Positions 10,684-22,042 of a DNA stretch of 35,809 nt are shown here, one piece after another; the stretch's first letter is position 1; each line of letters starts with the position of its first letter. The notes below the pieces were generated by a model that was not told where the DNA came from, made no database searches, and saw nothing but the letters and a program-made list of their open reading frames with translations. The translations under genes were made by a program, and so were the position numbers. The DNA comes from Nitrospira sp. (GTDB lineage: Bacteria; Nitrospirota; Nitrospiria; Nitrospirales; Nitrospiraceae). Location: positions 1 to 35,809 of the forward strand of contig JABFSU010000069.1 of the NCBI GenBank assembly GCA_013140455.1. Reading direction: 5' to 3'.

Positions 10684-11942
10684 GGCTGGGGCTCCTCTCG
10701 CTGGGGTATTCGTGAACGGACGTTCATGCCGGCGTGCAGCGACGGCGGCGGCGCGAGGATCACCTGTGACGACGCGGTCAAGGTTCCTCGCACGTCGCTG
10801 TCTCCACCGCTCCTGGACAGTTCTTCTACGGAGACTTCCCGGGCGACCCCGTTTTCGAGCACATAGAGGATGGATCGGCCGTTCTTCTGCACGAGTGCGG
10901 ACGAAGGAACGAACAGCCGCGGCGCGGTTGAATCGCTCGGTCGAGCGACCGGTGAGAACGAGACCTTGGCGCTCATTTCCGGGAGTACGCGCTCGTCACG
11001 CTCGACGAAGCGAACTTTTGCCAACACCGTGCCTTTGGACCGGTCGGCAGTCGGCACGATTTGTTCGACCGTTGCGGGATAGTGTTTGCCCTGCAGCGCG
11101 TCCAGAGTGATCTCGGCTGATTGGCCCTGCGCGATCTGTGAGAACGAGGATTCCGAGATCTCCGTCTCGACCGCGAGCGAGTTCATATCCGCGATAAGGA
11201 CCACCGCTCCGCGCGAACTGGCAGAGCTGGCCATCGGCGCGACGACTTCGCCGATCTCGGCAAATTTCTTTAAGACGGTGCCGTCGAACGGTGCTCGTAT
11301 CAGCGTGTTCTCCAGCATGACGTCGGCGGTCTGTACGTCGGCTTCCGCCGCCGTAATGGCGGCCGCCGCAGATCGCACCGTCGCTTCCGCACGTCGGAGA
11401 CGTGTGGCTGTCGTGTCGAACTCGGCTTGTGAGATAAACTGATTTGGCAGTAAGGCCTCGGCTCGTGCGTAACTGAGCCGGGCGTCCCGCTGTTCGGCTT
11501 GGGCGTTTGTCAGCGCGGCTTTGGCCACATCCAGGCGTGCCTGCACCTGGCGTTGAACGGCTTGGACGTCGTCTTGCTGAACCCGCGCAATGATGTCACC
11601 GGTTGTGACGCGGCTGCCGACGGAGACGGCGAGATATTCCAGACGCCCGGTACCTTTGGACGCGACAGAGGCTTGTCTCTGCGCGACGACATATCCACTG
11701 GCGCTCAAGAGCGACGACGGCGTGGCGCTCCCGACGATCCGCACCGGAGCGGTGTCAACCTCCGGCAAGGAGGAGAGCTCTGGAAGAACCCAATAGAAGA
11801 GCCCTGCCAGGCAACCGCTACAGACGATGCTTGCGCCAACCCATCTGAGCCAGGGCCTTGATTTGCGGGGTTCTTGTGGAGATTCTTCCCGCGGCAAGGT
11901 GAGGACGGACACGTCTGCATCTCGAATCGGCGGAGCGGTCAT
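10680..11942 (-). CDS. Periplasmic adaptor (HlyD/MacA family)
   Basis: A 420-residue membrane-fusion protein. One N-terminal helix (about residues 30-52) anchors it, a lipoyl/barrel-sandwich region flanks a coiled-coil hairpin (about 120-200, Ala/Gln/Glu-rich), and beta-barrel and membrane-proximal domains follow. Adaptors of this family link an inner-membrane transporter to an outer-membrane channel; no TolC-like gene is in the window. Its start overlaps the stop of the AraC gene (ATGA at 11939-11942) and its stop overlaps the ATPase start. Confidence 0.88.
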   Translation of the reverse strand: MTAPPIRDADVSVLTLPREESPQEPRKSRPWLRWVGASIVCSGCLAGLFYWVLPELSSLPEVDTAPVRIVGSATPSSLLSASGYVVAQRQASVASKGTGRLEYLAVSVGSRVTTGDIIARVQQDDVQAVQRQVQARLDVAKAALTNAQAEQRDARLSYARAEALLPNQFISQAEFDTTATRLRRAEATVRSAAAAITAAEADVQTADVMLENTLIRAPFDGTVLKKFAEIGEVVAPMASSASSRGAVVLIADMNSLAVETEISESSFSQIAQGQSAEITLDALQGKHYPATVEQIVPTADRSKGTVLAKVRFVERDERVLPEMSAKVSFSPVARPSDSTAPRLFVPSSALVQKNGRSILYVLENGVAREVSVEELSRSGGDSDVRGTLTASSQVILAPPPSLHAGMNVRSRIPQREEPQP

Positions 11943-12598
11943 GAATGGTCCCTTGTCGGAATGGGGCGTGATTTGAGGGGGCGCCGGCAGCGTTCCGATC
12001 GAAACTGGATCGGGGATTGGCCGGTCGCTCGCTTAAAGAAATGGCTGAACGCAAACTGATCGCAGAATCCGATGGCCGTCGCGATTTCAGCTACGCCTTT
12101 TTCCGTGGTCTGCAGCAATAGGCTGGCGGTTTCAAGTCGGCGACGCTTGAGATGCGTGGAGAACGATTCGCCCATCGTGCTGTGGAATAGATCGGAGCAA
12201 TACTTTTCCGAATATCCGAGAAACTGCGACAAGAGTTTGAGTGTTAAGCCCTTGTGGAGATTTGCAGTCATGAACTCGTGAATGCGCGTTGAAAGAGGCG
12301 GCTGCGAGGCCGTGGTGTCCCCGTTTGCCGGATTGAGGACATGTGCCAAGTTGAACAGACCGCTGATCACCTCCAAGAATTCTCGCTCCGATTTCACCTG
12401 GGCCAGTCGATCGGCCCAGTGGGGGGCGTAGCGGCTTAGTTCTGCTGTGAGTGTGTGAATGCGTCTAGCAAGCATGATTGGCTGTGCAGGTTTCGTCATC
12501 TGTGAAGCGAATCCCATTCCACTGCTGTATGTCAGCGAAGCTGCGCCGACATCATGATGAACGCCATAAGGCTGTGTGATATCGGGCTCTGGACTCAT
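11939..12598 (-). CDS. AraC-family transcriptional regulator
   Basis: The C-terminal part (about residues 110-205) carries two helix-turn-helix units typical of AraC, including GVAEIATAIGFCDQFAFSHF and the FKRATGQSPIQFR end. The N-terminal part (about 45-95) resembles no sensor I can name. It probably controls the export operon it heads, since its stop overlaps the adaptor start. The start is uncertain. A TTG at 12640 would extend the frame without support. I chose ATG 12598, with GAGG rather close and GGGAAGG further back. That ATG lies in the loop of element A1, so either the element controls initiation or the real start is later (ATG at 12517 or 12499). Confidence 0.75.
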   Translation of the reverse strand: MSPEPDITQPYGVHHDVGAASLTYSSGMGFASQMTKPAQPIMLARRIHTLTAELSRYAPHWADRLAQVKSEREFLEVISGLFNLAHVLNPANGDTTASQPPLSTRIHEFMTANLHKGLTLKLLSQFLGYSEKYCSDLFHSTMGESFSTHLKRRRLETASLLLQTTEKGVAEIATAIGFCDQFAFSHFFKRATGQSPIQFRSERCRRPLKSRPIPTRDHS

Positions 12599-12635
12599 GT
12601 CCTCTGGCCTTCCCACACACGTTCGTGTGGCGTGG
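12584..12635 (-). promoter_or_regulatory. Element A1: structured RNA motif at the araC start
   Basis: Read on the minus strand, a strong hairpin (12612-12635, loop AA) precedes the core at 12584-12609. The core has an outer stem GGC/GCC, an internal loop of CAGA and AGA, an inner stem GGAC/GTCC and the loop ATGA. The loop contains the likely araC start codon. Unlike A2 and A3 it has no terminator, but CCGATATC beside its 3' arm (12578-12585) can pair with GATGTCGG (12546-12553) downstream. It lies between the Com-like gene (stop 12650) and araC. Confidence 0.55.
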
Positions 12636-12649
12636 TTCAACCAACTCGA

Positions 12650-12853
12650 CTAAGACATCCGGGGCGGCGTTCCGCGAATCAACTCAATCGGGACGTACAC
12701 CAGGCGGCGGCACCGCTTGCATTTGATTTCCAAGCCTCTCCCTGTCCATCGGGCAATCAGTTGTCCGCATGCGCAGCGAAGGCTGCCGTCATGAGGTTGT
12801 TGTCGGTCCTGTCTGTCCACCTGTGCACACTCCTGATCCGAGACTGGAGTCAC
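12650..12853 (-). CDS. Com-like small zinc-ribbon protein 1
   Basis: A protein of up to 67 residues with a Cys-X-Cys pair (Cys27, Cys29) and a Cys-X2-Cys pair (Cys45, Cys48) around GQLIARWTGRGLEIKCKRC. This matches the Com family of phage Mu, where Com is a zinc protein that binds its mRNA and switches on translation of mom. It is closely similar to the protein at 19285-19464. It lies between elements A2 and A1. The annotated start is GTG 12853, but its GGAG is only 2 bases away. GTG 12820, with AGGAG 9 bases before it, is an equally good choice and leaves the cysteine domain intact. The function here is unknown; RNA-linked regulation is an inference from family and context. Confidence 0.7.
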   Translation of the reverse strand: MTPVSDQECAQVDRQDRQQPHDGSLRCACGQLIARWTGRGLEIKCKRCRRLVYVPIELIRGTPPRMS

Positions 12854-12873
12854 CGCTCCGTAAAAGGTTCCAT

Positions 12874-12907
12874 AAAAAAGCCCATGGCCACTGTGTGACC
12901 ATGGGCT
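12874..12907 (-). terminator. Intrinsic terminator of the A2 attenuator
   Basis: On the minus strand AGCCCATGG pairs with CCATGGGCT, extended inward by TCAC/GTGG with one G-U wobble, and is followed by six T residues. It ends about 20 bases before the start of the Com-like gene at 12853. Its 5' arm includes the GCC that closes element A2, so the two structures cannot coexist in full. Confidence 0.8.
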
Positions 12908-12960
12908 CTGGACTCGGTGTCCTTTGGCCTCGTCTTCCTGGTTCGCTGACCGGGAAGACG
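12903..12960 (-). promoter_or_regulatory. Element A2: attenuator-type RNA motif before com-like gene 1
   Basis: On the minus strand a long hairpin (12931-12960, arms CGTCTTCC and GGAAGACG) leads into the core at 12903-12929. The core has an outer stem GGC/GCC, internal loop strands CAAA and AGA, an inner stem GGAC/GTCC and the loop ACCGA. The 3' GCC of the core is shared with the terminator at 12874-12907. Stabilising the core would therefore weaken the terminator and allow transcription of the Com-like gene. Element B2 lies directly upstream. Confidence 0.65.
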
Positions 12961-12971
12961 TATGTAAATGA

Positions 12972-13063
12972 GGGCGGGGGGCCCCAGGAGGACTGAGGGC
13001 CCCCGCCTGTGAAGTGGGAGGTCATGGCTCCCACTCCGCTGCCGGCGCGTGGAGCGCGCCGGC
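12972..13063 (-). repeat. Element B2: three-hairpin repeat
   Basis: Three hairpins in a row, about 92 bases, align base for base with B3. In plus-strand order they are a GC-rich arm pair around CCCCAGGAGGACTGAGG, a GTGGGAG/CTCCCAC hairpin with a 7-base loop, and GCCGGCGCG/CGCGCCGGC around TGGAG. It lies just after the stop of the di-haem peroxidase gene and directly before element A2 of the Com-like gene, so the two elements together make a leader of roughly 200 bases. Confidence 0.65.
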
Positions 13064-13095
13064 TGGTCGTTCTATTCACATCTTATCTGTCGTGG

Positions 13096-14955
13096 TTATT
13101 CATAGTCCTCGTTCAACGCTCTAAGAAAGGCTGCCAGAGGGCCGACATCCTGGTCACTCAAGCGGATGCCGCCGAGTTCCCGGTCTCCATTGCGCAGCAG
13201 CCCCGTGCGCTGGAGATTCGAGGAACCTCGATAAAAGTCGACGATTTGCTCCAGGGTATCGAATTGTCCGTTGTGCATATAGGGCGCCGAGTGTCCAAGG
13301 TCGCGAAGGCCCGGTGTTTTGAAGACGGCCACACTGGACGGCAAGAGTGCCTGTGCGCTGCACCGCCCCACGAACGGCGCGCTGTCCATCACCTGATCCA
13401 GTGCGTCGTCTGTCTGTGTCGAGAAGGGGCTCAGCCCATGCTGGCCGGCGCTGAGAGTCTCTGCGCAGAGGATGCGCCGGACACGGCGCTGAGAGGCGGA
13501 GAAATCGGGATTGGCAAAGACATTCCAGACGCCGAGGTCGGTCAGGCCAGGCTGGCCGGCCGATGGGACCTTCCGGAAAGGCTCCAGGGCATGGGGATGC
13601 TGCTCAGTGGCGGGCAGATACAGGTTATGGGCGGTATTCCGTTCGCGGAGGTCCGGGATTCTGAGTTGCGCGAATAACCCCGCCCCGTGAATCCGGTCAT
13701 ATTCCGCTTGGGTCGTTCCGGTATTGTGCATACGGAAATCTGTGAAGGTCGGTGCCTGATGGCAGGCGATGCAATTCCCGACTTTCCCGCGAGTCGCGGT
13801 GGATAATGCATTCAGCCCATGGCGTGTCTCTGCGAAAAAGATCTTCAATCCACGCAGTTCCTCGGCTCCGAACGTGAACGGTTGGTCGTGAAATGGAAAT
13901 GCGCCGTCGGCGGTGGCAGGATCGCGTTTGACGAATTTCAGGTGCCGGTGATGTTTTCGAAGTTTCTTGTGCGGATGCTGGGACACCCAGGACAGACTAT
14001 TGCCATGCTCCAGCCGTTCGATCGAGGCCAGCAGTCGCCGGCTGTACTCCAATGGGCTTTCCCGAAGCGCTGGCTTTCGGGGTAGGCCGTTTTTCTCCAA
14101 GAACACATCGTAGGGAGAGAGGTTGAAGGCGCCGCTCTCGTCCTGTGAAAACACCAGACCTTCAGTGTAAGCGCTGACCAGGTTTGCCACGGCGTGGAAG
14201 ATGTCCGTGTCCGACGCAGTTGCCACGTTCAGACGGAAGGCTTCAGGGAGGCGAAACTCTTCGGGAATCGAGGGGGCGGTTCCTTTCAAGACAACGGCGT
14301 ACGGTAACCCGCCGAAATCCTGGGCCAGCGGGCCGGTTCCATCGTCTTCCCGGACAATGCGGGCCAGATGGGCAATGGCCTGTGCCCGTTCGCCTGGCAG
14401 CCAGCCGAAATTGCGTCCTGAAAAGGTGGCCTCGACCAGCCCCGCCGTCGTCGCGAATTCGGCATCGAAATGCAGCAGAAGCCCGCCGCTCCGCGGAAGC
14501 GTCGCGTTGACCAGCGAAGGGGAATTGCGCGGGGCAGCGGTCATCCCGTCTGCGCGGGCGGGGACCGGACTGCGCCGGGCAAAATCGGCATAGGTCCGCA
14601 TCGTGCCGCCCGGCGTCTCGACGTGCTCATCGACCAAATGACAGGCCCTGCAGTTCATGGACAGCCCTGCGAACGGACCGGGCAGCGGCTCGCCGATGGT
14701 GACGGTTTTGTCCATGACCGGATCGCCAGCTGGCAAGGGATCATTTACCGCTGCCCCTTCGGCGAGGAACTGCTGAAAGAACTGCGCGAATCTCGTTTCA
14801 AGGAATAACCGCTCGCCGACGGTGATTTCAGGCGGATCTGCGGCGGCCTCCTGGGCCTGAGCGACGGAGGACAATGATTCCATGCCTATTAGGAAGCAAA
14901 GGAGGACACCGATGAAGACCATCCTTCTGGCAGTGCGACGATTCAACTGCATCAT
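13096..14955 (-). CDS. Exported di-haem cytochrome c peroxidase-like protein
   Basis: A 619-residue exported protein with a signal sequence at 1-35 and two c-type haem sites: Cys102-Arg-Ala-Cys105-His106 and Cys395-Ile-Ala-Cys398-His399. The C-terminal TPGLRDLGHSAPYMHNGQF, with Met560 as possible axial ligand, is typical of the CcpA/MauG family, which reduces peroxide or oxidises protein residues in the periplasm. It is much longer than ordinary bacterial peroxidases (about 330-350 residues), the haem sites being nearly 300 residues apart. A His-rich stretch (HPHKKLRKHHRHLK, 327-340) lies between them. ATG 14955 has GGAGG at a good distance; an upstream in-frame start at 14982 has no support. 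Element B3 lies in its leader. Confidence 0.82.
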   Translation of the reverse strand: MMQLNRRTARRMVFIGVLLCFLIGMESLSSVAQAQEAAADPPEITVGERLFLETRFAQFFQQFLAEGAAVNDPLPAGDPVMDKTVTIGEPLPGPFAGLSMNCRACHLVDEHVETPGGTMRTYADFARRSPVPARADGMTAAPRNSPSLVNATLPRSGGLLLHFDAEFATTAGLVEATFSGRNFGWLPGERAQAIAHLARIVREDDGTGPLAQDFGGLPYAVVLKGTAPSIPEEFRLPEAFRLNVATASDTDIFHAVANLVSAYTEGLVFSQDESGAFNLSPYDVFLEKNGLPRKPALRESPLEYSRRLLASIERLEHGNSLSWVSQHPHKKLRKHHRHLKFVKRDPATADGAFPFHDQPFTFGAEELRGLKIFFAETRHGLNALSTATRGKVGNCIACHQAPTFTDFRMHNTGTTQAEYDRIHGAGLFAQLRIPDLRERNTAHNLYLPATEQHPHALEPFRKVPSAGQPGLTDLGVWNVFANPDFSASQRRVRRILCAETLSAGQHGLSPFSTQTDDALDQVMDSAPFVGRCSAQALLPSSVAVFKTPGLRDLGHSAPYMHNGQFDTLEQIVDFYRGSSNLQRTGLLRNGDRELGGIRLSDQDVGPLAAFLRALNEDYE

Positions 14956-15028
14956 GACAAACCTCCGTGGTGGAACCACCAATGATTCCTCCTGAAAATA
15001 GAACCGGCCTCCGTTCGAGTAATACGTA

Positions 15029-15120
15029 GGCGGGAGGCCTCAGGACGATCTGAGTGCCCCCGCCCATGAAGCGGGAGCGTACAACTCCCACTTCGGTGCC
15101 GGGGCGTGGAGCGCGCCGGC
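15029..15120 (-). repeat. Element B3: three-hairpin repeat in peroxidase leader
   Basis: This copy matches B2 along its whole length with scattered differences, most of which keep the pairing. In the middle hairpin GAAGTGGGAG/CTCCCGCTTC pairs fully as minus-strand RNA through a G-U pair, but would have a C-A mismatch as plus-strand RNA. That supports transcription in the direction of the di-haem peroxidase gene, whose start is about 75 bases downstream. A small hairpin (14968-14981) lies between it and the ribosome site. Confidence 0.65.
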
Positions 15121-15162
15121 TGATTTCTTGAGGTCTCGGTGAAATTCATCTGACGAATCGCT

Positions 15163-15837
15163 TCACCGGCCACCGGCGCCGGGCTCGTTCAGCAGGCGGC
15201 TGAAGAGCGAGACCAGACCGGGATCAAATTGAGTCCCTGATGCCACGAGGAGAATCCGGAGCGCAATCCGGTTTCTCGACTCCCGGCAGCCTTCGCCGGG
15301 GACCCGTATGGCGTCGAACGCATCGGCAATCGCCAGAATCCGTGCGCCGACCGGAATGAACGTGCCTCTGATCCCGTAGGGATAGCCGGAACTGTCCCAC
15401 CGCTCGTGATGATGGGCAACGAGCACGGCGGATTCGCGCAGAAACGTGAAGGGCTCCAGCAGTTGCGCGCCGAGTCGCGAATGGCTCTGGACGGCGAGAT
15501 AGGAGTCGGGTTCAAATGGAGACGGTTCTGCGGTGAGCTCACTGGGGAGCATCAAGAGGCCGATATCGTGGAGAAACGAGGCCAGCTTGAGATGGTGCAG
15601 CTCGTCGTCCGTCAACGCGGCAGCCCGTCCGATCCTGAGCGCGACGGCGGCGCTGCGCCGTCCATGGCCGGCTTGCCACGGGAGCGACCGGTCGATCTCT
15701 CTGCTGACCTGGCGGACCAGAATACTCTCGATGTCCCGGCGGGATGCAGCAGGGAGCCGAAGGCGATCGATCTTGCCGAGTAACCGCTGAATGCGCACAA
15801 TGACCGGGTTGACGGTTGAGCTGTAACTGCGTGGCAT
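15163..15837 (-). CDS. HD-GYP-type phosphohydrolase domain protein
   Basis: A 224-residue protein made almost only of an HD-GYP-like domain. It has His58, the HD pair His90-Asp91 in FLHDIG, His119, HHHE (142-145) and Gly-Tyr-Pro at 151-153, then VGARILAIADAFDAI. HD-GYP enzymes hydrolyse cyclic di-GMP. The Lys that normally follows HDIG is Leu here (HDIGL), so activity is uncertain. There is no receiver or other sensor domain. The start is ATG 15837, with GGAGGAG 5 bases before it. The longer frame (to 15993) would run through the terminator and element A3, so I reject it. Expression probably depends on the attenuator directly in front of it. Confidence 0.8.
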   Translation of the reverse strand: MPRSYSSTVNPVIVRIQRLLGKIDRLRLPAASRRDIESILVRQVSREIDRSLPWQAGHGRRSAAVALRIGRAAALTDDELHHLKLASFLHDIGLLMLPSELTAEPSPFEPDSYLAVQSHSRLGAQLLEPFTFLRESAVLVAHHHERWDSSGYPYGIRGTFIPVGARILAIADAFDAIRVPGEGCRESRNRIALRILLVASGTQFDPGLVSLFSRLLNEPGAGGR

Positions 15838-15850
15838 CGGAACTCCTCCA

Positions 15851-15889
15851 AAAGCACAAAGCCCAAGACCACTCTCGTGATCTTGGGCT
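15851..15889 (-). terminator. Intrinsic terminator of the A3 attenuator
   Basis: On the minus strand AGCCCAAGA pairs with TCTTGGGCT, extended by TCAC/GTGG with one G-U wobble and capped by GAGA, then followed by TTTGTGCTTTT. It lies directly before the ribosome site of the HD-GYP gene. Stem position and inner TCAC/GTGG match the A2 terminator although the outer stem sequence differs, as expected for a conserved structure. Confidence 0.78.
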
Positions 15890-15910
15890 CTGGGTGAACA
15901 ACCTCTGGCC
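15885..15910 (-). promoter_or_regulatory. Element A3: attenuator-type RNA motif before HD-GYP gene
   Basis: On the minus strand the core has an outer stem GGC/GCC, internal loop strands CAGA and AGA, and an inner stem GGT/ACC. Its 3' GCC is the start of the terminator at 15851-15889, the same overlap as in A2. It lies in the 104-base gap between the four-helix membrane protein gene and the HD-GYP gene, so it would act inside an operon. Confidence 0.65.
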
Positions 15911-15941
15911 TGATTAAATTGTCTGAACCGCTCCGAGGGTG

Positions 15942-16460
15942 CTAGGTCTCTTCGGGACGCTTTCCGCCCATCAAGGGCTGTTTCAGAATCCACATTTCAT
16001 GCAGGGGGATCCACATCATGATCAAGAACGTCACCATCATCAACGTGTCCCCGGTCAGCATCGTCAGGACGAAGACAGGTGACACGTAGCTGATCAGCCA
16101 GGGCGACAGCAAATCTAACCCGACGCCGGCAAACGAGAGCCAGGTCATCCAGACCTTCATGGCCTGGCTGGCGCTCGTCAAATACAGCACGTGGACCAGA
16201 ATCATGAAGACGACCGGCATGGTGAAGAGGTGAAAATGCGTCACCTCCGCCAGTTCCCGGAACGACATCGGTTCGCCGAAGGTGGCATCCGATCCCCGGT
16301 AGTGTTCTGCAATGCCTTGTGGCGACAAGCTGGTCATACTGTGAGCCCAAAAGAACGAAAACAGAAATCCGATCAGCATCAAGAGCAAAAACTGTGTGTA
16401 CAGCAGTCGGATATGGCGATCGGAGTCCCGGAGTTTGAATCGTTGATTAAAGTTTTTCAT
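15942..16460 (-). CDS. Four-helix inner-membrane protein, unknown
   Basis: A 172-residue protein with predicted helices near residues 22-42, 72-95, 100-125 and 130-155. The segment HFHLFTMPVVFMILVHVLYL (about 75-94) has two His in and next to a helix on top of further His residues at the ends, as seen in membrane haem-b proteins, but no family motif I can name. It follows the FMN-binding protein by 24 bases. A role as the membrane electron carrier for that flavoprotein is an inference from position and His content. No clear ribosome site precedes ATG 16460. Confidence 0.65.
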   Translation of the reverse strand: MKNFNQRFKLRDSDRHIRLLYTQFLLLMLIGFLFSFFWAHSMTSLSPQGIAEHYRGSDATFGEPMSFRELAEVTHFHLFTMPVVFMILVHVLYLTSASQAMKVWMTWLSFAGVGLDLLSPWLISYVSPVFVLTMLTGDTLMMVTFLIMMWIPLHEMWILKQPLMGGKRPEET

Positions 16461-16484
16461 AGGGGGACGCTCGGTCCGCTTCGT

Positions 16485-17171
16485 TTAGTTGCCGAAAATG
16501 GATGTAAAGATGCCCTTCTCAGATTTGCGGGATGCGACTGTATCGCTTCCCAGCCCGGCCGGCTTCAAGTAAAACTCGTCGACGAGGACCAGCACACGCT
16601 TGACCCCGGCGCTCATCGAGCGGACGGACATGGTGGCGCCGCTGATGTTGATGATGTCCTTGTTGATCCGGATAGGGTCGGATACCGTTCTTCCATCATA
16701 TTGCGCGTTGAACCGCTTTTTCCCGACCTCACTGCCTTTGGCGTCGCGAAAGACCAGCAATTCCACGTCAGTGCAGGCGCCTTTCGGATCGACGCCGACC
16801 ATATAGGTCATGTGCTTGTATTTGCCGATGGTGTTGTGAATCATGGCATAGCCGTCGATTTTGTCCCCGGTTTCCCCGATGTACAGCTCAAAGGATTCCT
16901 CTGGAAACTTCCAGCCGATCCGCTGCTCAATGAGCTCTTTCTTTTCCGGTGTCAGGCGGATCAGGTCCTTGTGCACGCGCTGGGATTTCGGGAGGATGGT
17001 TTTCACGGCCTCCTCTTCTGTCATAAATTCTTCATACTTGAAGTCGTCGTCCTTCAGAAATCGGCGCAATTCGTTATCCCAAATCTTCTCAGCTGCCAGG
17101 ACCGGGAGTGACGAGGCTATGAGCAGCACAGTGATGATGATGGTGCGGAACGCACTCAGTTGAGGGAACAT
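16485..17171 (-). CDS. Exported FMN-binding flavoprotein
   Basis: A 228-residue protein with a signal peptide at 1-27 and a C-terminal FMN_bind domain (about 90-215). The motif NISGATMS places Thr180 where NqrC/RnfG-type proteins carry covalently attached FMN. The attaching enzyme, ApbE, is encoded divergently at 19624. It likely carries electrons in the periplasm between an inner-membrane donor and an extracytoplasmic acceptor. AAGGAG lies 5 bases before ATG 17171. The gene overlaps the end of the lipoprotein gene by 16 bases, so they are in one operon. Confidence 0.83.
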   Translation of the reverse strand: MFPQLSAFRTIIITVLLIASSLPVLAAEKIWDNELRRFLKDDDFKYEEFMTEEEAVKTILPKSQRVHKDLIRLTPEKKELIEQRIGWKFPEESFELYIGETGDKIDGYAMIHNTIGKYKHMTYMVGVDPKGACTDVELLVFRDAKGSEVGKKRFNAQYDGRTVSDPIRINKDIINISGATMSVRSMSAGVKRVLVLVDEFYLKPAGLGSDTVASRKSEKGIFTSIFGN

Positions 17172-17614
17172 CCATGCTCCTTTAGTTTAGTGTCCAGGCG
17201 GCTTTGTACATCAGTCATGACCTCCGCCGAGGGATCAGTGGAGGCCCAGCCGAAGAGGCGTGAGCCGCCGCGGAACGCCCATCGCTGCCGCTCTTCGGCA
17301 AAGCTGACTTTAGTGACATCGTCCAGCCGCTTGACGATGAGGGTGACACGGGACCGATCTCTGCTATCCCCCAAATCGCGTTGGAGGGCACCAAAGGTCC
17401 GTCCCGGCATCGGAATTTCCAGCCAGCCGGTGGCAATCATGCCGCCGTCTTTGTCTTTCGTAACGATGGCACGATCCTTCACCGCCTCCAGCGCAGCCTC
17501 CCAGGCATGGTCATAGCTGCACACCGCAAACCGCTGTTGCATGCCGCTCATGGAGGCGCAGGCCGTTAATAAAGTCGGCATCAGGAAGAGAGTAACGAGT
17601 CGTCGCATCATCAT
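17156..17614 (-). CDS. Small lipoprotein, unknown
   Basis: A 152-residue protein with a lipoprotein signal (MRRLVTLFLMPTLLTAC, lipid-bearing Cys about residue 19). The mature part is a small mixed alpha/beta domain with a DRSRVTLIVKRL strand pattern that faintly resembles BamC-like or other envelope lipoproteins; I cannot assign a family. It lies between the porin and FMN-binding genes and probably belongs to the same outer-membrane or periplasmic assembly. Confidence 0.7.
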   Translation of the reverse strand: MMMRRLVTLFLMPTLLTACASMSGMQQRFAVCSYDHAWEAALEAVKDRAIVTKDKDGGMIATGWLEIPMPGRTFGALQRDLGDSRDRSRVTLIVKRLDDVTKVSFAEERQRWAFRGGSRLFGWASTDPSAEVMTDVQSRLDTKLKEHGCSLN

Positions 17615-17634
17615 ACTCGGCCTTGTTTCTCACT

Positions 17635-17665
17635 GAGGTGCCACCCCATGCTGGGGCGGCACCTC
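17635..17665 (-). terminator. Strong intercistronic hairpin
   Basis: As minus-strand RNA, GAGGTGCCGCCCC pairs with GGGGTGGCACCTC, 13 pairs including one G-U, around a 5-base loop. No T-run follows, so it is not a classical terminator. It probably protects the porin message end or lowers expression of the following lipoprotein gene. Confidence 0.55.
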
Positions 17666-17674
17666 ATGGTCCTT

Positions 17675-19150
17675 CTAGAAGTACGTGGCTGCCTGAATCA
17701 GGAAGCCGTTGCCGTTCATCGGACTGCCCGATGATCCTAGATCCCCTGCGGGAACCAGGCCCTTCGCATCTTTCTGGGTGTTGAATTGCCAGTCAAACTT
17801 GATGACGGTGTCTTCGATCGGCCGGAAGTTGAGGCCGAGGGTCAAGCGCTCGAGCTCCCGCTGGCCTCCCAGCGCATTCTGCTTGGTGCGGCCATCCGTG
17901 TCGGTATTGACATGTTCCCACCGGACGACGGCGGTAAATGTCGACGCATCTGTGAAGTGGCTGGGTGCCCAGGTTTTTAGGAAGTCGGGCATGAAATGGT
18001 AGTTGCCCTGAATATAGTAGCCCTGCATGCCGGCCGGACCGATGCCTCTGTTGGCGACTCCGGTCGCATTGTTGTTGCTGATTCTCGTCCAGGCCGATTC
18101 CCCGATGACTTCGAACGGGCCTCGTTGCAGGGTCCAGTCCAACGCAACGATGTCGATCGTGCCCGTATCGACAGTGCCGGCTGATGGCTTGTAGGAGCCA
18201 TGGTAGCCGGATCCTGCGACTTCGATGCCCAGCATGGGGCTGAAGGCCACACGGCCGACAATGGCCTTGTTGTCATCGCGATCACGGGAGACGCTGCCCC
18301 GGCCGCTTCGGACGCCGAGGTCGGTAATCCCACCAGCAGTCTGGCTCATACCATTGACCGCATAAAGTTCGTAGTCGATCTTCGAGAGGGATGTCGGATA
18401 GAGGGTTCCGTAAATACCGGCACCGGCTTCAAACCAGGTGCTGGGAATGATAATTCTGGAAACCATCGGACGATCGACGAGATCGTTCAGCGGTGAGTCG
18501 TGCAGCAAGTTGAACTTACCGACCGGCATCAGAAGAATACCGCCGCGGAGATTGATCGCTTCATTAATCAGATAGTCCAGTTGAGCAAACTCAATCTGCA
18601 TAGATCCATCGGAATTGGTCGTCGTGGATTGTCCGATTGGAGCATTGGGTCCGCCTCTCTCGATCTCGATTTCTGTGGCGAACTTGATATGGTCGGTGAT
18701 GTCCGCATAGATGAAAGGCACCATCCGCTGCTGGCCGAAACTATTGCGGCTGGGATTGTCCAGATTCTGGCGAGACAAATTGTTGTACATCACATCGACA
18801 TACCCGCCGACCGTCGCTTTTGGCGCGCTCAAGAACGGCTTCGCGTAGACTAGTTTTCCTGATCCGGTTGATCCAAATCCCAGGGGGACATTCTCTTCGC
18901 CTTTGCGTTCGACTCGAATATCGGTGATAGGGCCAGCTGCCATGGGATATTGGGCAGCGCCGGGCTGGCCTTCCTTCTTCTCCATGACCCGTTCGGCCGA
19001 ACTTTCGCGCCGTTCGTGTTCCTGCATCTTCTTGTTCACGGCATCATCGACTAACTTTTTGATTTCCTCCGGGGTCATATCGACTGCCAAGGCCGGCATG
19101 GCCGACAAACTGGCGATTACGAGAGCCCCGAGGATTGACCGCATCTTCAT
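17675..19150 (-). CDS. Outer-membrane porin
   Basis: A 491-residue protein with a signal peptide (1-23, ending PALA), an N-terminal charged helical segment (about 26-60, coiled-coil-like) and a beta-barrel region with alternating strands ending in FLIQAATYF, a C-terminal Phe as usual for outer-membrane barrels. It resembles phosphate-selective porin-like barrels. GGAGG lies 6 bases before ATG 19150; the longer frame would swallow element A4 and overlap the Com-like gene. The substrate is unknown. Linked FMN-binding and haem proteins suggest passage of an electron acceptor or metal chelate. Confidence 0.82.
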   Translation of the reverse strand: MKMRSILGALVIASLSAMPALAVDMTPEEIKKLVDDAVNKKMQEHERRESSAERVMEKKEGQPGAAQYPMAAGPITDIRVERKGEENVPLGFGSTGSGKLVYAKPFLSAPKATVGGYVDVMYNNLSRQNLDNPSRNSFGQQRMVPFIYADITDHIKFATEIEIERGGPNAPIGQSTTTNSDGSMQIEFAQLDYLINEAINLRGGILLMPVGKFNLLHDSPLNDLVDRPMVSRIIIPSTWFEAGAGIYGTLYPTSLSKIDYELYAVNGMSQTAGGITDLGVRSGRGSVSRDRDDNKAIVGRVAFSPMLGIEVAGSGYHGSYKPSAGTVDTGTIDIVALDWTLQRGPFEVIGESAWTRISNNNATGVANRGIGPAGMQGYYIQGNYHFMPDFLKTWAPSHFTDASTFTAVVRWEHVNTDTDGRTKQNALGGQRELERLTLGLNFRPIEDTVIKFDWQFNTQKDAKGLVPAGDLGSSGSPMNGNGFLIQAATYF

Positions 19151-19183
19151 CGGTATCCTCCACGGTGAGTTGGGTTGTGGTCT

Positions 19184-19209
19184 GACTCGGGACTCGGTGG
19201 TCTCTGGTC
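19184..19209 (-). promoter_or_regulatory. Element A4: RNA motif before porin gene
   Basis: On the minus strand the outer stem is GAC/GTC instead of GGC/GCC and the inner stem GAC/GTC, around the loop CACCGA, with internal loop strands CAGA and CCGA. The stem changes on both sides keep pairing relative to A1-A3. No terminator follows. It lies 34 bases before the porin start and about 76 bases after the Com-like gene stop. Confidence 0.5.
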
Positions 19210-19284
19210 TGGTGGTTGCGAACAGGATCGTACCTCGAATGAATACTGCTGTAGTCTGCGGAAAACCTCCTTTCGTGAATCGAC

Positions 19285-19464
19285 TCATGACGCGACGGTG
19301 CTCCATCCTTCGATGGATGAGAAGGGGATCACGACGATGCGCTTACAGCGCTTACATTTCAGCTCGATCCCTTGCCCTCGCACCTTGGCGATCAATTGCC
19401 CGCACTCGCAGCGGGTTTCATTGCCATGACACGTGTCCGGTTCCGACTTTCTTGTGGTAACCAT
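19285..19464 (-). CDS. Com-like small zinc-ribbon protein 2
   Basis: A 59-residue protein with Cys19-X-Cys21 and Cys37-X2-Cys40 around GQLIAKVRGQGIELKCKRC, clearly homologous to the protein at 12650-12853 and to the Mu Com family of zinc-binding RNA-binding regulators. It was found by direct translation from ATG 19464. The gene heads the porin operon, with element A4 between it and the porin, and a Fur-box-like site lies upstream at 19493. The first cysteine pair is C-X-C rather than C-X2-C in both copies, an unusual zinc-ribbon spacing. An RNA-binding role is inferred, not shown. Confidence 0.68.
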   Translation of the reverse strand: MVTTRKSEPDTCHGNETRCECGQLIAKVRGQGIELKCKRCKRIVVIPFSSIEGWSTVAS

Positions 19465-19492: not shown

Positions 19493-19507
19493 TGAGAACG
19501 ATTATTA
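19493..19507. promoter_or_regulatory. Probable Fur box in divergent promoter region
   Basis: TGAGAACGATTATTA matches the 7-1-7 Fur consensus at 11 of 14 half-site positions. It lies between the Com-like gene (start 19464, minus) and apbE (start 19624, plus), so it could control both. Similarity to the better box at 7521-7535 (shared TGAGAA and ATTAT parts) supports the call. Confidence 0.55.
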
Positions 19508-19623
19508 ATATCTCGCTAGAGGGTCCGTTGTCAAGAGGGGCGTGCTTGTCGCATAGTGAAGCGGTGCGGTCGATTTGTACCTGCCTGTCGGGAACCGGCT
19601 CTTTGGGGCGGAAGGATGGTGGA

Positions 19624-20667: not shown

Positions 20668-21042
20668 ATGGTGTATAGCCCGTCAAATATTGTGGAGCAA
20701 GGGATTCGGTCCTATCTTGTCTTGGTGCTAATCTTCTGCGGTGCCTGTGGAGAATTTGAAACGGGCTATTTCCAGAGCAAAGTGAATCAGGTCACGCAGG
20801 ATGAGGTCGCCAAGCGGTATGGAATGCCGCATAAGCAGGAGAAGCAACCAGACGGACACTCTCTCTGGACGTATTTTGTGCGGGGAAGCGGAACCAGCGG
20901 CTATAGCGGGTATGCCAGAACGGAGTATTGCCGGGCTTATCTGCTCACCTTTGACCAGCAGGGAATGTTGCGCGACTGGCATGACCAGGATTGTGCGACG
21001 CCGCCGGCGAAAATTACCGAGCCGTTTTCAGGTCGTAACTGA
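20668..21042 (+). CDS. Small lipoprotein, unknown
   Basis: A 124-residue protein with a hydrophobic start and a probable lipidation Cys (LVLIFCGAC, about residue 27). The mature part begins with VTQDEVAKRYGMPHK, the pattern of SmpA/OmlA-like small outer-membrane lipoproteins (a short motif before Gly-x-Pro). It carries a few further Cys residues. It lies 27 bases after apbE and is probably co-transcribed. Its 3' end overlaps the convergent tonB gene by 29 bases. No function can be assigned. Confidence 0.65.
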   Translation: MVYSPSNIVEQGIRSYLVLVLIFCGACGEFETGYFQSKVNQVTQDEVAKRYGMPHKQEKQPDGHSLWTYFVRGSGTSGYSGYARTEYCRAYLLTFDQQGMLRDWHDQDCATPPAKITEPFSGRN

Positions 21043-22042
21043 TCGAAAACTTGATGGGGCGTTGCGGGCGACCGAGCGGGCGTGAGAGCTTGATCGGTGG
21101 GCCTTGCTCCACGTCGGCAATTGCCGCTCGATCAAGCACGATATTTCCTGAGCTTTTTGCGATTTTCACATCCGTCAGCGTGCCGTTCTCGTGGAGCATC
21201 GCCACGAGCACGACTTTCCCCTGTACGCCTTCCAGCCGTAAAGTTGCAGGGTAGTGCTTTTCCAGATCGGCAATCCATTTCCCCATCAGCGCTGAGAGCC
21301 AGCCATCATCCGGTTTTGCGGTGATGGACTGATCTGGCGGAGTGAGCGCGGCCACTTCCGTGGCGGCTGGCGGTGCAGGCTGATGGATTGCCGTCGATGC
21401 ATCTGCGGTCCTGCTGGGTGTGGACATTGGTGGTTGCGGGACTTCTTTCTGTGTGCGAACAGGCTCAGGCGTAACGGGTGCAGGTTCTGGAGCGCTGGCG
21501 GCTATGCTGGATGGCGCGGAGGCTGACGGTGGTTCGGGGAGGACCACTGAACGCGCGGGCGCTGGTATGTCGGCCAGGGTTGTTGTAGGCGGAGCCTCAT
21601 GCGATTTCACGGCAGCGGGCGGCTGAGGGCGTGGATCTTCGCGGATTGGTTCAGGTGTGGGTTCGGGGTTCGAGGGTGCCGCGGTTTGTATTGGGGAAGG
21701 CGGAGCCGGTTCCGTACGAAGCGGTGTGTTTTGGGTTTGAATTGGAGGTGCCGGAGCGGGGACAACGGGAGACGGCAAAGGCTGAGCGGGAACGGGGGGA
21801 GGTGCCGGGCTTGGGGGGCTCGGCGGAGACTCGTTGGCGGCAGCCGGAGGCGTATGAGAATCCACCGGCTGAACCATGGCGACATTCCATTCGAACGGCT
21901 CCTCCAGCAGTGCCAGTTGCATCTGTTGAAGCAGTACCATCGCTCCGAGCACAAGGCTGCCGTGAAGACCAAGCGAAACCAGCCATCCGGCCGTATGTGC
22001 TCCGCCTGCGCTCACTCGATCATGATTCCGGGCTTGCGTCAC
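21014..22042 (-). CDS. tonB: TonB-family energy transducer (second copy)
   Basis: A 342-residue protein with an N-terminal helix (about 18-40), a very Pro-rich linker with Pro-Pro and Pro-Ala repeats (about 65-240) and a C-terminal TonB domain (WIADLEKHYPATLRLEGVQGK onwards). It is directly coupled to exbD through an ATGA overlap at 22039-22042. With ExbB and ExbD it forms the energising complex for TonB-dependent import. Its linker is of the Pro-rich kind, unlike the Ser/Thr-rich linker of the first TonB at 6357, so the two probably serve different receptors or spans. Confidence 0.85.
   Translation of the reverse strand: MTQARNHDRVSAGGAHTAGWLVSLGLHGSLVLGAMVLLQQMQLALLEEPFEWNVAMVQPVDSHTPPAAANESPPSPPSPAPPPVPAQPLPSPVVPAPAPPIQTQNTPLRTEPAPPSPIQTAAPSNPEPTPEPIREDPRPQPPAAVKSHEAPPTTTLADIPAPARSVVLPEPPSASAPSSIAASAPEPAPVTPEPVRTQKEVPQPPMSTPSRTADASTAIHQPAPPAATEVAALTPPDQSITAKPDDGWLSALMGKWIADLEKHYPATLRLEGVQGKVVLVAMLHENGTLTDVKIAKSSGNIVLDRAAIADVEQGPPIKLSRPLGRPQRPIKFSISYDLKTAR

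Follow-up and report, generated by a model that had tools for sequence, protein, structure and literature searches.

The Com protein of phage Mu is a small four-cysteine zinc protein whose gene lies directly upstream of its target, mom, and in the mom mRNA an RNA hairpin adjoins a structure that hides the start codon. To our knowledge, Com has a single known target and has so far remained a curiosity of phage biology. RAT hairpins, the sites of the BglG-LicT-SacY antiterminators, are approximately 30 nt long, contain an internal loop, and overlap the 5' arm of an intrinsic terminator, and riboswitches join one sensor structure to expression platforms that are terminators or start-hiding structures. 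Selection of RNAs with a phage Com gave the motif CC(N)2-3GAG in loops; the selected RNAs often carried two GAG(N)2CC motifs flanking a short stem, and one binder, RNA I, includes CCAGAG (PMC6483171).

We analyzed a 35,809-nt stretch of a Nitrospira sp. genome, referred to here as the window, for which the original prediction was that two small proteins are homologous to each other and resemble Com. Both genes lie on the minus strand: com1 (12853 to 12650) has a GTG start and encodes 67 amino acids, and com2 (19464 to 19285), the first gene of an operon preceded by a Fur-box-like site, has an ATG start and encodes 59 amino acids with the motif RCECG..KCKRC. Their products are 54% identical over 41 residues (E = 1e-16), confirming the homology. 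The resemblance to Com also proved real but lies below the level of Pfam and NCBIfam: scans of the com proteins with these libraries returned no family and no CAT RNA-binding domain, and the Com-like proteins did not rise above noise with the Pfam Com model, PF10122. Membership in the Com family is therefore based on PHROG and profile comparison. All 22 of the 22 Com-like members scanned matched both PHROG 13819 ("gpCom," best 6e-4) and PHROG 6417 ("translational regulator," best 9e-5), and comparison of the family with phage Mu Com by hhalign gave a probability of 94%. The RCxCG and KCxRC cysteines are invariant among 21 diverse members, defining a four-cysteine ribbon, with zinc inferred. 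The predicted structure of a Com-like protein has a three-stranded core and a 10-residue block with pLDDT of 82 to 86. A PDB fold search with this model found nothing significant (the top matches were initiation-complex chains, with the IF2-beta zinc ribbon fifth), and a sequence search of solved structures gave only weak matches. A tblastn search of com2 against phage records produced no match and so gave no indication that the gene is left over from a recent prophage. Orthologues of com2 are present at at least 80 Nitrospirota loci, and nearly all of its relatives are in Nitrospira or Nitrospirota assemblies.

Four copies of a short hairpin, element A, accompany these genes, all on the same (minus) strand as the genes that follow them. 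Read along this strand, the Fur-box-like site and com2 are followed by A4 (19184 to 19209), which lies 76 nt past com2 in the leader of an outer membrane porin-like gene (17675 to 19150, AUG at 19150, with only a subthreshold match to BBP2), and then by a weakly matched DUF3576-like gene, an FMN-binding gene, and a gene without a Pfam match. A3 (15886 to 15910) comes next, ahead of an HD-domain gene (AUG at 15837) and a subthreshold cytochrome-like gene. These are followed by A1 (12904 to 12929) in the leader of com1, com1 itself, A2 (12585 to 12609) 41 nt past com1, a gene for an AraC-family regulator (11939 to 12640, start uncertain), and a HlyD/ABC/MacB-type exporter. A3 is 3.3 kb downstream of com2 but behind four same-direction genes and is thus also linked to com. 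The predicted arrangement, with A1 and A2 flanking com1 and A4 after com2, was correct except in one respect: A2 had been placed before its own gene, when it is A1 that precedes com1 and A2 that follows it. The candidate autoregulatory copy is therefore A1. A second, hairpin-rich repeat lies on both sides of the cytochrome-like gene; its two copies (12993 to 13065 and 15050 to 15122) share 82% identity across 73 nt, and a shorter stretch related to them occurs at 768 to 799.

Element A consists of an outer stem, a CAGA/CNGA internal loop, and an inner stem, as in the GAC-CAGA-GAC..GUC-CCGA-GUC hairpin of A4. A strict pattern search of the organism's own genome found only A1 to A3, so that A at first gave the impression of a repeat confined to this locality, and only the use of a structured model changed this picture. 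With a model built from the four copies, A1 to A4 score from 52 to 35 bits, and only two further matches in the whole genome, both on contig C93, have comparable scores. A collection of 148 matches from the window, the same genome, and related loci, seeded by this model, gave the consensus 5'-G(G/A)C-CAGA-(3-bp stem and loop)-C(A/C)GA-G(C/U)C-3'. In the outer stem, 63 matches had the triplets GGC/GCC, 57 had GAC/GUC, and 22 had GGC/GUC; the GAC/GCC triplets of three readings look like misparsed upstream bases. Among 36 distinct sequences, 97.2% of cells were paired, with 29 double-change cells, and at most 53% were paired when the partner was shifted by one to three columns. This set was picked by a pattern in which the outer triplets had to read G(G/A)C and G(C/U)C but did not have to match each other, which introduces a mild bias into the outer-pair counts. 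Later pattern scans demanded pairing of both stems and so provide no evidence for the structure. No Rfam family matched the window at gathering level, and a permissive Rfam scan of positions 12400 to 16000, a range that excludes A4, found nothing over A1 to A3.

The copies of A fall into two classes according to their 3' end, GAGCC or GAGUC. In the GAGCC class, 123 of 141 copies contain the start of the 5' arm of an intrinsic terminator, mostly 5 to 9 nt before the end of A. This arrangement is like that of RAT, an internal-loop hairpin overlapping the terminator 5' arm that a protein would stabilize. Terminators of this kind, both on the minus strand, begin in A3 (15857 to 15892), ahead of the HD-domain gene, and in A1 (12877 to 12909), directly ahead of com1. 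At L242 and L243 a second A-like hairpin lies 3' of the terminator, which suggests that distant families use two such controls in tandem. Most of the GAGUC class is of the A4 type, ahead of the porin, and only 3 of its 112 copies overlap a terminator. In A4, GAGUCCCGAG (19186 to 19195, minus strand) would instead form the 5' arm of an alternative, translation-inhibiting pairing with CUCGGGGCUC in porin codons 7 to 10 (19123 to 19132, minus strand). All 10 positions are complementary, including one G-U pair; the complementarity is intact in 61 of 71 loci, and the predicted duplex is mostly at about -20 kcal/mol. At porin codons 6 to 9, the dominant codon accounts for 0.97 to 1.0 of conserved residues versus a gene median of 0.57, the lowest codon entropy among 193 windows of the gene. 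As in the mom mRNA, the hairpin thus adjoins a structure predicted to hide the start codon; unlike in Com/mom, the A strand itself joins the inhibitory fold.

Folding calculations predicted that the terminator is preferred at A1 and A3 and the start-hiding pairing at A4, with penalties of 10.0, 10.8, and 5.0 kcal/mol for forcing the A hairpin in A1, A3, and A4, respectively. A2 has neither a terminator nor a start-hiding partner, and its A hairpin is itself the predicted minimum-energy fold. The A2 loop contains an AUG in frame with the AraC gene (AUG, GUG, or CUG among relatives). A2 may therefore work differently, and its hairpin may conceal a start codon instead of exposing one. Like a riboswitch, element A joins a single sensor structure to two expression platforms, but the sensor is very small, matches no Rfam family, and is coinherited with a dedicated RNA-binding-like protein. 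Taken as a whole, the identification of element A as a cis-acting RNA switch is well supported.

The association of com with A, which had been inferred from position and family alone, extends to related genomes throughout the family and to other families of the phylum; the condition set in advance for rejecting it, a lack of co-occurrence in other genomes, was thus checked and not fulfilled. Using thresholds of E ≤ 0.01 for A and E ≤ 1e-3 for com, we found A in 151 and com in 148 of 175 family genomes; sorting the genomes by the matches listed, and the remainder by elimination, gives 143 that carry both, 8 with A alone, 5 with com alone, and 19 with neither. Because A4 and A3 lie within the com2 operon, this distribution alone could be explained by loss of one operon. 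A stronger test used 25 com copies at 24 loci, chosen by protein score alone and mostly paralogous or divergent. A same-strand A with at most one mismatch was present within -160/+260 nt of 24 of the 25 copies, and one without mismatches in 19, versus 0.033 and 0.016 expected per copy, respectively, from the rest of the same loci. Some of these com copies are orthologous, so binomial values overstate independence, and many A copies are orthologous, so their counts exceed the number of independent events. The contexts of the com-A pairs differ (TonB receptor, HD gene, AraC-exporter, or porin), and where com paralogues occur at unrelated loci, every one is accompanied by an adjacent A of its own. 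Mostly, A lies 20 to 90 nt past com, with the next gene after it, and among the loci read no gene other than com is so consistently adjacent to it.

In a phylum sample of 296 genomes, the 217 outside the family included 37 with com, 18 with A, and 17 with both; the 180 without com yielded a single weak A match, about the level expected by chance. In distant families, an A-like hairpin follows com by no more than a few tens of nucleotides, for example 12 nt (L242 and L244), 11 nt (L243), or 43 nt (L247), and others have diverged forms of A or none detected by the pattern used. Several exceptions could be inspected individually. Both G070 and G134 have a stretch of N in the porin region, at the place expected to hold com and A4, and in the com-only genome G171 a diverged A lies 226 nt downstream. 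In G059 (L168, around 3700), A4 and the porin are kept, but the genome yielded no com, and A is bordered by IS-like sequence; this is possibly a natural loss of com.

Several trans copies of A, including those on contig C93, have no com gene nearby. For the most part, A lies ahead of genes with the look of iron uptake functions. Away from com2, A precedes TonB-dependent receptor genes at five loci (L155, L166, L204, L208, and L219), a TonB gene at L155, an ExbB and TonB gene and an ECF sigma factor gene at L205, and ExbB/ExbD clusters at L174 and on contig C93. A different small CxxC protein (MKGSCQKCGG..CVNCGW) is encoded at L093 (1862 to 2000) near the C93 Fur-A leader, and similar reading frames lie near A in L205 and L216. 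In the window, the Fur-box-like site (19494 to 19512, minus strand) agrees with the consensus at 15 of 19 positions and overlaps the -10 element of a promoter-like site (19534 to 19507). Sites matching at least 13 of 19 positions precede com2 at all 80 of the 80 loci; among 400 stretches drawn at random from these loci, 14 reach this level, and some of the 14 perhaps overlap the site itself. A Fur-like box is also present at 8 of 15 trans A sites. From these sites and the gene context, Fur binding and iron control are inferred, on sequence grounds only. A gene for a TonB C-terminal domain protein (21014 to 22042) near com2 fits an iron-type neighborhood.

We consider it likely that Com-like proteins stabilize A and thereby activate an iron regulon, either by antitermination or at the level of translation. 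When no binder is present, downstream sequence would capture the 3' strand of the element (CAGAGCCC or GAGUCCCGAG), which would serve as the 5' arm of the terminator at A1 and A3 or, at A4, pair with the beginning of the coding sequence, and in each case the next gene would be off. Phage relatives of Com read GA-containing loop motifs, and Com is modeled here as binding likewise to the two CCNGAG halves of the internal loop, so that the stabilized hairpin would release the terminator or free the start codon. Lying behind a Fur-box-like promoter, com2 would be expressed under iron scarcity, and its product would then turn on its own operon and the A sites elsewhere, ahead of TonB receptors, TonB/ExbB/ExbD, and the ECF sigma factor. 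Computational analysis established the structure, covariation, competing folds, genomic linkage, and iron-type gene context on which this proposal draws; that Com binds A, which way the effect runs, and that iron is the signal are inferences.

Com was proposed as the binder on the basis of the com-A linkage and the likeness of A to the phage Com motif. In element A, a short stem separates CCAGAG or CCAGCG from CCNGAG; A and the phage motif have in common a GA-containing CC..GAG form that is bipartite around such a stem. The spacing in A is N1 and not N2-3; the likeness is therefore a resemblance and not proof. The A copies without a nearby com gene, the A kept in G059, and the deviating features of A2 also weigh against Com as the binder. 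Nothing identifies the binder of A directly, and sites in leaders are open to other regulators; nevertheless, that another protein binds A, or a small RNA pairs with it, while Com acts elsewhere appears quite improbable, given the linkage, the Com-like motif, and the lack, among the loci read, of any other gene with such consistent adjacency. We also consider it unlikely, though somewhat less so, that A is a riboswitch that responds to a small molecule or a metal, perhaps an iron-related one, and needs no protein, with com as another iron-regulated gene in the same operons. The near-universal presence of A beside com copies at different loci, its absence from com-less genomes outside the family, and the two near-copies of the Com motif inside it all argue against such a switch, even though riboswitches typically have an internal loop that is compact and conserved, more than one kind of expression platform (two here), and targets of the iron type, and the A-terminator overlap is equally compatible with ligand binding.

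Element A looks palindromic and in some leaders lies within about 100 nt past a Fur-like box, as might a DNA site. There is very little left to recommend a promoter, a repressor operator, or a dispersed repeat, however, since A has a fixed orientation toward the downstream gene, the covariation, terminator overlap, and synonymous constraint on the complementary coding stretch all point to the RNA level, and A, unlike a dispersed repeat, has few copies in the genome. These same features largely refute both a DNA operator and a repeat of that kind. Com as the binder of A thus remains the best explanation of the linkage and the motif, although binding has not been shown.

Compared with Mu Com/mom, the Nitrospira system shares a com gene directly 5' of a target and profile similarity of the protein. 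It differs in being chromosomal, in having iron-type targets instead of DNA modification and several target sites in trans, and in its inferred action on transcription terminators besides translation, with a protein below the PF10122 threshold. Element A may work like RAT without being a member of that class, since it overlaps a terminator but the Com-like proteins are zinc ribbons that lack CAT-RNA-binding and PRD domains; translation would also be controlled, and the targets are not sugar genes.

Within the collection of papers searched, there was no earlier description of a Com-hairpin iron circuit, and Nitrospira and its relatives may thus possess a previously undescribed protein-and-RNA switch. 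We are inclined, with rather more reserve than for the binding proposal itself, to see a chromosomal system, spread across the phylum and layered on Fur control, whose dedicated Com-family zinc ribbons bind a single type of hairpin that switches both termination and translation of an iron acquisition regulon, and whose several com-A pairs in a genome may act in parallel. Were this so, element A would be a new RNA family for annotation, and its variants a natural set of hairpins from which to learn how a minimal zinc ribbon reads RNA. If Com-like proteins do bind A, the iron genes that respond would become predictable, and Com-type control, through antitermination besides translation, would be a chromosomal strategy in the phylum that includes nitrite oxidizers and comammox bacteria.
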